Shown here piece by piece: positions 41,324 to 43,146 of a stretch of 64,000 nucleotides of DNA. The notes below the pieces were generated by a model. The model saw only the letters and a program-made list of their open reading frames with translations, did not search any database and was not told the origin of the DNA. This stretch comes from Pseudomonadota bacterium (GTDB lineage Bacteria > Pseudomonadota > Gammaproteobacteria > Burkholderiales > JABEVD01), in assembly GCA_021835845.1 (NCBI GenBank), contig JAKBJU010000003.1, forward strand, positions 62,001 through 126,000, written 5' to 3'. The number at the start of each line of letters is the position of its first letter. The first letter of the stretch is position 1. Both the position numbers and the translations under genes were made by a program.

Positions 41324-41337
41324 TCGCCTTGCCGCAT

Positions 41338-41604
41338 TCAATCCCCGAACGGGTTGAACAGCGGGACGGCGAAGCGTTCGAAATCGCGGACGTTTCGGGT
41401 GGCAATGGTGAGTTTGTGCATGAGCGCAGTGGCTGCAATCATGGCATCCTCGTAAACGGTGTTCGTCTGCCTGTGCATCAGTTTTGCCCAAAGCCGGAAT
41501 ATTGCGGCATCCATGGGCAATATGTTGTAGGTAGCGGCAACCTGATCGGCCCAGGTTTCTATTTCTGCAGCCTTGAGGGCATCCTGCTCGGGCCAGGTAT
41601 TCAT
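41338..41604 (-). pseudogene. C-terminal fragment of a PIN-domain (VapC/FitB-like) toxin
   Basis: An open frame of 88 residues matches the last two thirds of a FitB-type VapC ribonuclease: WPEQDALKAAEIETWADQ, then VYEDAMIAATALMHKLTIATRNVRDFE and VPLFNPF. The catalytic Asp/Glu of the N-terminal 45-50 residues is missing, and two in-frame TGA codons lie just before the ATG. No antitoxin gene is nearby. Element C begins 31 bp upstream of this frame. It is probably an inactive remnant; a compact functional protein is less likely. Confidence 0.6.
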
Positions 41605-41634
41605 GATTTCACCTCATCAGACCAGATAGATGAC

Positions 41635-41906
41635 TAGGGCCTGTTAACACTTTACCGATGCGTGCGAACGTGATGAATCAGGTGACAAGGCAAGGCCGGA
41701 GCGGCGCGGTTTGGTTATTCCAAACAAGCCGCGAGGAACGCGGCAATGCGCCTGATTCAACCGTTCCCTTCGGGTTGCGGCAATATGCCGCGTCAACTGC
41801 GTTGCGCGTCTTGCGAAGGGCGCAACCATTCGCTGCGCCGCGCGCCTTGTATCCATCGGCATCTTGCCGCAACGCATCCCACCGGACAAGTGTTAACAGG
41901 CCCTAG
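41635..41906. mobile_element. MITE-like element C (CTAG flanks, GGCCTGTTAACACT termini)
   Basis: Element of 264 bp (41639-41902) with a perfect 14-bp terminal inverted repeat, GGCCTGTTAACACT, between CTAG copies at 41635-41638 and 41903-41906. The termini and most of the body differ from the other elements; the shared part is CGAAGGGCGCAACCATTCGC near 41813, which matches the internal CGAA-to-TTCG hairpin of A, B, E and F. It carries its own inverted repeat, CGCGGTTTGG with a matching half near 41725. No coding content. Confidence 0.75.
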
Positions 41907-42010
41907 TTTAGTATGCGTAGCACGATGTGCAAATTCAGGATCGGCTTGCCGTTCAATAACGATTTGCCCCGCTTGGCTTCCCCGTCAGTCGAAGGGGAGG
42001 CAGAATTGCC

Positions 42011-43030
42011 TTATTTGACAGCAAGTGCCCTTGCAATCATTTGCTGGACTTCGGTCGATACATTCACCGGTGTCAGCGACACTTCAGGATGTTGAGCAGC
42101 AAATACCCTGAAAATTTCGTCAGCGAATGCCTGTCCTATTTCTTCGACTCCTGCAAAGTCAAGAACCACCGTTTTAAACTTTTCGAAGCGCGACACCAGC
42201 CTTTTGGCCTGAGAACGTGACACGAGCTTTTCGCCTTCATGACGGGCCAATCTTACCGGAACAATGGTTTTGCTGAAGGTGAATTCATCCGGTTCGGTAA
42301 ACTGATTGTAAATTGAAGTCATCGTGCGCGGGCAATCATTATCCAGCTTCAGAATGACGCTCGTCCCGGGTATATCCAGATCCGCATCGATCAGCCAGTC
42401 ATCCCGTTCGGACGACTCGTGTGAGAAATAGAGGTTATGCGAAAGAATCGTAAATGAATCGAACGACCTGGAAGTGAAGAAAATGCCTTCTCCTGAATGA
42501 CGAGCCGGATCGGTTGTGAATTTTCCTTTTGCCAGTTCGAGGATCGCTTCCCTTGGGTCATAAAGGCCTGCCAGTCGCTGAATCCGTTGAAAGATACCTT
42601 CGCCGTCGTCGGTGATCTGGACTTCGACATCGAGCGCGGTGCGAACGTAAAGGAGAGTCAGTTCCGTGCCTTCGGAATGATCAATGGCATTGTTGATCAT
42701 TTCCGTAATCCCATAATGCCAAACATCCCTCACATTCTCGGGTAAATCGGAAAGAAGGGGGGCCAGATTTTCAGTCCAAACCACATCTTCTCTCAGCCCC
42801 TGCAGCGAAAAATGCCAGGTTCTTTCTGTCAGGGGAACAATCCGGGATGTTTGGACATTTCCTTTTCCGGAGGATTCGACCTTGCCTTCATTTTCAAGCG
42901 CATGGAGATGACGGCTTGCCGCTTGCCTGGAAATGCCGAAATGACGCGCTGTTTCGGCTGCCACGTTTCGAGCCTTGTTTCTGCAAAGGCGCAAAATGAA
43001 TTCTCTGATTTCGGATGTTTTTTGTCGCAT
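42011..43030 (-). CDS. HTH - HATPase - DUF4325 (STAS-like) regulator
   Basis: Single protein of 339 residues with three parts. Residues 1-65 form a winged helix-turn-helix (NVAAETARHFGISRQAASRHL). Residues 85-215 form a GHKL/anti-sigma-type ATPase domain with N-box EMINNAIDHSEG, G1 DDGEGIF and G2 HSGEGIFFTSRSFD. Residues 260-335 are a DUF4325 STAS-like domain (KTVVLDFAGVEEIGQAFADEIFRVF). No sensor or membrane part is seen. It looks like a self-contained DNA-binding switch; partners are unknown. Base composition is lower in GC than the neighbours, which suggests transfer. Phased repeats lie directly upstream. Confidence 0.85.
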   Translation of the reverse strand: MRQKTSEIREFILRLCRNKARNVAAETARHFGISRQAASRHLHALENEGKVESSGKGNVQTSRIVPLTERTWHFSLQGLREDVVWTENLAPLLSDLPENVRDVWHYGITEMINNAIDHSEGTELTLLYVRTALDVEVQITDDGEGIFQRIQRLAGLYDPREAILELAKGKFTTDPARHSGEGIFFTSRSFDSFTILSHNLYFSHESSERDDWLIDADLDIPGTSVILKLDNDCPRTMTSIYNQFTEPDEFTFSKTIVPVRLARHEGEKLVSRSQAKRLVSRFEKFKTVVLDFAGVEEIGQAFADEIFRVFAAQHPEVSLTPVNVSTEVQQMIARALAVK

Positions 43031-43035
43031 GATAT

Positions 43036-43107
43036 CGTCAACTTTAATCGGTTATGTCGACAACTATTCTACATGAAATTGACAAAACTTCTGTCGTTTT
43101 TGACAAC
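43036..43107 (-). promoter_or_regulatory. Four phased G(A/T)CAA repeats, likely operator
   Basis: On the plus strand GTCAAC (43037), GACAAC (43059), GACAAA (43081) and GACAAC (43102) recur at 22, 22 and 21 bp, two helical turns each. All are preceded by T/C-rich and followed by A/T-rich bases. The array begins 6 bp upstream of the start codon of the HTH-ATPase-DUF4325 gene, so autoregulation is the simplest reading. Confidence 0.5.
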
Positions 43108-43146
43108 ATTCAGGCGAAAAGCTTGTTTTTCCGTGCCTGGTCTTGA

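Follow-up and report, generated by a model that had tools for sequence, protein, structure and literature searches.

A one-gene regulator joining a winged HTH, a GHKL ATPase and a STAS-like domain, with a predicted operator of three direct repeats

A gene in a 64,000-nt stretch of bacterial DNA (hereafter "the window") encodes a 339-aa regulator in which a winged helix-turn-helix (HTH), a GHKL ATPase and a STAS-like DUF4325 domain are joined in one chain. Three direct repeats precede the gene, and arrays of the same geometry precede most of its closer relatives. The domains are ordinary but their arrangement is unusual, and comparison of the relatives makes the array a strongly predicted operator. 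With moderate confidence, we propose a self-contained autoregulator, transferred between genomes as one gene together with its own operator, whose DNA binding would be gated by ATP, free of phosphorylation, in a head-to-tail assembly.

Among bacterial regulatory schemes, partner switching is a classic, and the CapK/CapS and VapKSC systems have tied it to immunity, as described in the accessible text of Chambers et al. (EMBO J 2026; PMC13373217). The fused regulator raises two questions: how a partner switch works after loss of the phosphorylated residue, and why a seemingly self-only regulator gene spreads across phyla. Since the system consists of one protein and one predicted operator of compact size, measurements of ATP state, of STAS docking and of DNA binding could be combined in one tube.

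Domain organization

The gene is a complete open reading frame with an ATG start codon. Its parts are as follows, in coordinates of the window:

42011–43030, minus strand: regulator gene, 339 aa, winged HTH, GHKL ATPase and DUF4325/STAS (open reading frame, Pfam, AlphaFold2 model)
42833–43030, minus strand: winged HTH, residues 1–66 (Pfam HTH_28; VIA-align to winged-helix domains over residues 2/3–66)
42329–42829, minus strand: GHKL ATPase, SpoIIAB/RsbW-like, residues about 68–234 (Foldseek, VIA-align; conserved boxes)
42014–42283, minus strand: DUF4325, STAS-like, residues about 250–339 (Pfam; STAS-like fold)
Within the DUF4325 domain, G299-Q300-A301-F302: acceptor position

By Pfam, HTH_28 matches residues 22–49 (E = 1.2e-5; 25.7 bits against a cut-off of 25), and the recognition helix, as read from the HTH pattern, probably lies around SRQAASRH (residues 34–41). 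DUF4325 (PF14213) matches residues 274–329 (E = 5e-17; 61.7 bits against a curated cut-off of 23), making the protein a member of this family by profile. The match to HATPase_c_2 at residues 94–195 (E = 2.2e-5; 24.9 bits) misses the curated cut-off of 27.4, yet the fold match to SpoIIAB is strong. This was seen with a full-length AlphaFold2 model built on an alignment of 81 sequences (pLDDT 84.4, pTM 0.76, with residues 173–179 below 50). Foldseek and VIA-align rank SpoIIAB first and RsbW next for the ATPase domain; VIA-align of the model gave Z = 14.6 over 135 residues at 2.8 Å for SpoIIAB (1l0o) and Z = 12.8 over 102 residues for RsbW (6m36). The GHKL structural match begins at residue 65–68, i.e., straight after the HTH.

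A scan of 84,980 species genomes yielded 375 relatives of the protein, the best 80 of which (44–78% identity) were examined; with the window's protein, they make up the 81-protein set. In this set (the window plus the best 80 of 375), the N box residues E110, N113 and N114 are conserved in 79, 80 and 81 sequences, respectively. D141, G143 and G145 of the G1 box are each invariant, as are G180 and G182 of the G2 box. The regulator has intact N, G1 and G2 boxes, as in GHKL anti-sigma-type kinases (SpoIIAB/RsbW).

Because VIA-align of the whole model barely tested the STAS part, the C-terminal part was modelled separately (pLDDT 78.3). The resulting model resembles a STAS fold. Its best match is RsbS (6jhk), at a modest Z of 8.0 over 81 residues (2.8 Å), above which there is no match; most of the structural matches listed are STAS proteins or STAS-bearing transporters. 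Foldseek E-values for this part are weak (best, 0.017). The likeness is seen by fold comparison only, since a sequence profile of this part found nothing useful among solved structures. Pfam recognized no effector domain, such as a nuclease, anywhere in the protein. An earlier, sequence-only reading of this DNA had proposed that a DNA-binding domain, an anti-sigma-type ATPase with intact boxes and a STAS-like domain are combined here in one protein. The profile and fold matches bear this out: the boxes align with those of GHKL families and are conserved across the 81 sequences, and the C-terminal part matches DUF4325 well over the cut-off.

A direct-repeat array upstream of the gene

Ahead of the gene lies a three-copy array of direct repeats, which was absent from the sequence-only reading:

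43100–43106, minus strand: repeat copy 1, distal, core TTGTCAA
43079–43085, minus strand: repeat copy 2, core TTGTCAA
43057–43063, minus strand: repeat copy 3, proximal, core TTGTCGA
43066–43071, minus strand: TAGAAT, putative −10 element immediately ahead of copy 3, proposed from the sequence

The array was scored blind in the 81-protein set (best 80 of 375 relatives plus the window), allowing any 9-mer in three copies at spacings of 18–26 bp, with a maximum score of 27. Scores of at least 22 were reached by 59/81 upstream regions, 0/81 downstream regions and 0/405 dinucleotide shuffles. With spacings of 18–26 bp allowed, both were 21 or 22 bp in 73/81 upstream regions and in all 59 high scorers, versus 4/81 downstream regions. 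A second scan, with a hand-made core model and spacings limited to 20–23 bp, placed an array in 80 rows and none in one further row; the spacings were (21,22) in 52, (22,22) in 15, (21,21) in six, (22,21) in four, and others in three. The window's own array scores 21/27, which is reached by 8/405 shuffles and 4/81 downstream regions and is not significant alone; the relatives supply its support.

The copies are 21/22 bp apart and their core differs between groups. It is TTGTCRA in the window and its clade, and TTGACAA or TTTACA elsewhere; the unit is about AAGGTTGACAAT in the main clade, with core positions carrying 1.2–2.0 bits in each copy (36 sequences), and CTTTACAT in the third group. Core base 4 is T at 32/33 sites of the window's clade versus 8/195 sites of the others. 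With the window's clade excluded, core base 3 is G at 121/135 sites of proteins with Asn at residue 39, versus 32/60 sites otherwise. Both comparisons cover 76/81 rows, five with no or weak arrays being left out, and use sites picked by the hand-made core model. The repeats thus vary with the recognition helix, as expected of that helix's binding site, although the agreement comes largely from one clade, to which the first contrast is confined, and may reflect a single event.

Judged from the sequences compared, the array is a feature of the closer subfamily and is mostly unseen in more distant relatives. Among four distant relatives that could be read by script (all at 42–54% identity), the array is clear in L119; L120 keeps the geometry at a shuffle-level score, and L121 and L122 are without it. 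Five of the 17 scorable relatives on viral contigs (see below) reach at least 21 with both spacings 21–22, L201 and L204 at only 21; the corresponding shuffles reach at least 22 in 2/170 cases. Close relatives L002, L003 and L005 have TATAAT at the place of the window's TAGAAT. Because a sigma-70 consensus scan ahead of the window's gene found no complete promoter, the overlap of operator and promoter is offered as a prediction only.

Stand-alone DUF4325 proteins and the missing phospho-acceptor

DUF4325 was surveyed in 299 genomes and found in 26 of them, in 28 open frames; the E. coli control genome has a match. Seventeen frames are of 101–159 aa and encode stand-alone proteins, and 11 are of 338–533 aa, like the window's regulator. 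Twenty DUF4325 regions were fetched, 13 of them with stand-alone genes, and the upstream ORF was taken in 12 (G157 lies near a contig end). In these upstream ORFs, of 186–394 aa, the GHKL ATPase positions E, N, H, DxG and GxG are invariant (12/12); at E 0.01, six of the 12 match HATPase_c_2 and five match HATPase_c. Since a GHKL neighbor lies upstream of all 12 stand-alone DUF4325 genes for which the upstream ORF was taken, the fusion combines partners encoded separately in other loci. A function can thus be suggested for DUF4325, whose role is otherwise unassigned: it would be the STAS partner of GHKL ATPases.

In some cases the pair is followed by a further gene. L157 and L160 have a GHKL gene, a DUF4325 gene and a PIN gene, i.e., the VapKSC layout. 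In L155, L156 and L159, the third gene is of 147–219 aa and has no Pfam match at E 0.01; these genes possibly encode further effectors of VapKSC-like systems. After the pair in L154 (positions 1711–2376) comes a plasmid pRiA4b ORF-3-like protein (PF07929, E = 2.6e-52).

The acceptor position was located by alignment and from the model, in which helix 300–313 is the second of the STAS part. It is Q300-A301 in 81/81 fused proteins (window plus the best 80 of 375 relatives), a count that is partly selected because the fetch patterns included QAFADEIF (for the 80 relatives) and GQAFADE (for the viral contigs). By contrast, each of the 13 stand-alone DUF4325 domains carries Ser/Thr at one of these two positions or at both. 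Six fused relatives found by an independent protein search (L119–L124) have QA in four cases, PG or HG in the rest, and Ser/Thr in none. In these alignments, the Ser/Thr phospho-acceptor is absent from the second STAS helix of the fused relatives examined. Because the fused family has Gln-Ala where the STAS partners have Ser/Thr, a simple copy of the kinase–substrate switch is unlikely. The sequence-only reading had likened the protein to a collapsed partner-switching pathway; the gene pairs support this as regards architecture, but as chemistry it is unsupported, the residue that a kinase would target being missing in all 81 fused proteins examined.

A published two-gene analogue is CapK/CapS, which the accessible text of Chambers et al. 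(PMC13373217) describes as an ssDNA-activated kinase system. CapS is phosphorylated at a conserved Ser in its second STAS helix and controls its own promoter, and a conserved Ser/Thr in VapS is required for protection. With this two-protein precedent, the fused regulator could be CapK–CapS in one chain, the kinase phosphorylating its own STAS-like domain at a non-canonical residue (e.g., S271, S273 or T255) upon an ssDNA or damage signal, whereupon the HTH would leave the operator. The boxes are intact, S271, R272, S273 and T255 are invariant (81/81; best 80 of 375 plus the window), and S271-R272-S273 could be an alternative acceptor site. However, the invariance of S271-R272-S273 is equally explicable as structural, and the second STAS helix, on which CapS is phosphorylated, starts with Gln-Ala in all 81 proteins. 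Moreover, the fused regulator has no STAS domain between its HTH and GHKL parts, which is the site of CapK's predicted ssDNA groove. We consider a one-chain phosphorylation switch rather unlikely.

Distribution and transfer

The best 80 of the 375 relatives come from records of seven phyla. In an even draw of 398 genomes from the window's phylum, 10 had a match, seven of them substantial (the window's genome included) and three weak, in the ATPase region. Phyla are mixed in the tree of the 81 proteins, with 15 label changes against a minimum of 6 and a shuffled mean of 24.3. Among the best 80, the nearest relatives of the window's protein include those of Sulfurimicrobium, Gallionellales and Coxiellaceae bins, followed by Chlorobiota. 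Nearly all records are metagenome bins, and single phylum placements may therefore be contaminated; those of Chlorobium ferrooxidans and Aromatoleum anaerobium are among the exceptions. As far as these comparisons go, the spread of the regulator is patchy and is that of a gene acquired by transfer, moving singly between distant bacteria.

Nineteen relatives lie on predicted viral contigs. Flanking ORFs were listed for 5/19, and nine of these neighbors were scanned, with the window's protein as a tenth. L201 has a tail sheath gene two ORFs away and L208 adjoins endolysin and tail-fibre genes, a moron-like placement in both cases. The N-terminus of L213, another viral relative, looks by eye like an XRE-type HTH in place of the winged HTH; from this case, the DNA-binding part seems exchangeable.

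These viral relatives favor a moron-like gene for defence or superinfection exclusion, in which the protein would itself be the effector or trigger, and autoregulation would keep it silent until phage infection or DNA damage. VapKSC, which has the same two domain types, guards E. coli from a phage, according to the accessible text of Chambers et al. (PMC13373217). Against such a role, the protein lacks an effector domain recognizable by Pfam, and annotated phage and plasmid collections contain no match to the regulator. Furthermore, when 77 downstream neighbors were searched with PADLOC, each of the 25 families listed (of 116), mainly helicase-type, matched only one or two of them. A defence gene of this kind seems to us similarly doubtful.

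Neighboring genes and uniqueness of the array

The sequence-only reading had suggested a survey of the genomic neighbors of homologues. An all-against-all comparison of ORFs up to 10 kb around the gene found no cluster near it in more than five of 80 loci; most frequent among the near clusters is a transposase-like ORF on the opposite strand (six ORFs in 5 of 80 loci). Neighbor ORFs came from a crude caller, and three loci without a listed ORF of their own entered the tally at an assigned position, correctly so for L011 but incorrectly for L038 and L058. The nearest ORFs of at least 80 aa are random in strand: 37 same and 40 opposite downstream, 40 same and 37 opposite upstream (77 each). Pfam found no family in more than three of 77 downstream and 75 upstream neighbors, those of L073 and L081 being left out upstream; PIN domains occur in 2/75 upstream neighbors and at most 1/77 downstream. 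Where loci resemble each other in DNA beyond the gene, this seems to reflect synteny between close relatives or an insertion sequence in common. A conserved partner gene is rejected on these counts. The conserved unit, by the same comparisons, is the gene plus its upstream three-repeat array.

Forty-one whole genomes were searched with a strict pattern of two linked copies. The pattern matched at the regulator's own promoter in 37/41; G005, G433, G435 and G444 are unmatched even there, and it is for this reason that we call the pattern strict. Three linked copies occur only at the regulator's own promoter. Stray two-copy matches number 13, versus 10 for a backward-read control, and in the window's genome both two-copy matches are the gene's own array. 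Because three linked copies are found only at the gene, the array looks like an autoregulatory operator.

A regulon of three-copy arrays is rejected for the tested pattern, there being no second array in the 41 genomes. Direct repeats of 22 bp ahead of a winged-helix gene also resemble iterons. Iteron-type plasmid replication was dropped as an explanation: the relatives whose neighbors were scanned are surrounded by ordinary chromosomal genes, and nothing in the plasmid collection matched.

The two-copy pattern would miss single or diverged sites, so a regulon of such sites can be envisaged: the targets would be dispersed, would differ by host and would each have a single half-strength site, with the triple array providing feedback on the regulator's own level only. 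The TTGACA core of the main clade is the sigma-70 −35 consensus, so weak binding at many promoters is conceivable. However, no neighbor is common to more than five of 80 loci, no second three-copy array was found, and transfer of a single gene across phyla disfavors reliance on host target genes. A dispersed regulon is, in our judgment, unlikely.

Genomic setting of the window's copy

The gene has a GC content of 48.9%, versus 58.4% for the window, and the five 1020-bp windows of lowest GC start at 41901–42301. Upstream of it, on the other strand, lies serS (TIGR00414, over the cut-off); a MITE-like repeat and a PIN fragment lie downstream. The other flanking gene encodes a RarA-like AAA ATPase, the best profile matches being below their cut-offs. 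The description of the gene in the sequence-only reading, as sitting alone in a lower-GC patch, fits these data. Comparison with a sister genome delimits an extra segment:

41326–43126, no strand: segment without counterpart at the same junction in sister genome G030

Only 55 bp separate the two homologous flanks in G030 (the end of rarA and the leader of serS), whereas the same flanks are 1801 bp apart in the window. On its upstream side, the extra segment reaches 16–20 bp past the distal repeat. The segment may be more than one insertion, because it also carries the MITE-like repeat and the PIN fragment. Among seven sister loci compared, only G030 has the compact rarA–serS junction. In G033 and G028, a different stretch of ~0.9 kb separates rarA from serS; the remaining four have no rarA match within the stretch compared and hence are not informative. 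Eight other genomes of the genus (82–99% complete) have no intact copy of the regulator. One of the eight, G026, has a truncated start (L118) in which the HTH and the repeats are kept and similarity stops after about residue 56; this copy is at a different location from the window's, beside a transporter-like gene.

The MITE-like element (window positions 41636–41908; 273 bp) has terminal inverted repeats CTAGGGCCTGTTAACAC. It has seven full-length genomic copies with 94–100% identity, the window's included, and a sub-part of about 57 bp occurs in many more genomic places. The PIN/VapC fragment (41338–41604, minus strand; 88 aa) lacks the N-terminal part of the domain, covering profile positions 52–118 of 120, and lies on the same strand as the regulator, downstream of it past the MITE-like element. 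The locus could be read as a decaying remnant of a regulator–toxin pair with this same-orientation fragment as the former partner, as in VapKSC, where a PIN toxin gene follows the STAS gene (accessible text of PMC13373217), but the gene is intact and the family is kept without PIN neighbors (2/75 upstream, at most 1/77 downstream), making this reading very improbable.

Possible mechanism

In the autoregulator model that we favor, the winged HTH would bind the three direct repeats, whose spacings of 21 and 22 bp put them on the same side of the double helix. The repeats would overlap the gene's own promoter, such that binding would set the regulator's own expression, most likely by repression. 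Several members of the window's clade have a TATAAT-like element just ahead of copy 3 (TAGAAT in the window), which suggests that the bound protein would block the promoter. In turn, the nucleotide state of the ATPase part, which is SpoIIAB/RsbW-like, would control DNA binding through contact with the STAS-like domain.

With direct repeats two turns apart, identical protomers would all point the same way along one DNA face. Because the sites are direct rather than inverted repeats, we propose that each protomer contacts the next by docking its STAS domain on the neighbor's ATPase, so that a trimer would assemble head to tail along the array. The usual assembly of SpoIIAB-type domains is a two-fold dimer, which fits direct repeats poorly; this counts against the head-to-tail arrangement. 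The switch would be ATP binding or hydrolysis and not Ser phosphorylation, since with the phospho-acceptor gone, this is the simplest control that remains. The output would be a change in the level of the protein itself, probably upon DNA damage or phage-type stress. We prefer such a signal because L201 and L208 are moron-like and the two-gene cousins serve immunity. More tentatively, the family may represent a class of one-gene mobile regulators that work without phosphorylation, each forming an ATP-gated head-to-tail filament on its own operator and acting as a partner-free sensor of stress or phage.

Comparison with known systems

We found no description of an HTH–GHKL–STAS fusion in the open-access full-text literature. 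Within that literature, the remark in the sequence-only reading that signal sensing by such a protein is not established holds for the fused family; an analogue, CapK/CapS, was published in 2026 and is compared below as far as the accessible text describes it.

The fused regulator resembles SpoIIAB/RsbW and their partners SpoIIAA/RsbV in its ATPase fold (Z = 14.6 to SpoIIAB) and in the STAS-like fold of the partner. It differs in having the partner in cis, the acceptor Ser replaced and a DNA-binding domain added; no sigma factor partner was seen for it.

With VapKSC (PMC13373217, accessible text), the regulator shares a GHKL ATPase and a small STAS protein, and in L157 and L160 the STAS gene is DUF4325. 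VapKSC consists of separate genes, with a Ser/Thr in VapS and an adjacent gene for a VapC-like PIN toxin, whereas the fused regulator is one gene with an HTH added, and the window contains only the 88-aa PIN fragment and no intact PIN gene.

The likeness to CapK–CapS extends to the combination of HTH, GHKL kinase-like and STAS parts, to a resemblance to anti-sigma factors and their antagonists, and to control of the own promoter, which is shown for CapK–CapS and predicted for the fused regulator (PMC13373217, accessible text). CapK–CapS is encoded by two adjacent genes, HTH–STAS–GHKL and STAS–wHTH, whereas the fused regulator is a single HTH–GHKL–STAS chain; CapK has a STAS domain between HTH and GHKL, whereas here the GHKL part directly follows the HTH. 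CapK/CapS has a Ser acceptor and is mostly located upstream of immune operons, in contrast to the fused family, which has neither Ser/Thr at the acceptor position nor a shared adjacent operon. Finally, the operator of CapK–CapS is a palindromic TTAA, whereas that predicted for the fused regulator consists of three direct repeats, TTGTCRA, ahead of the gene.
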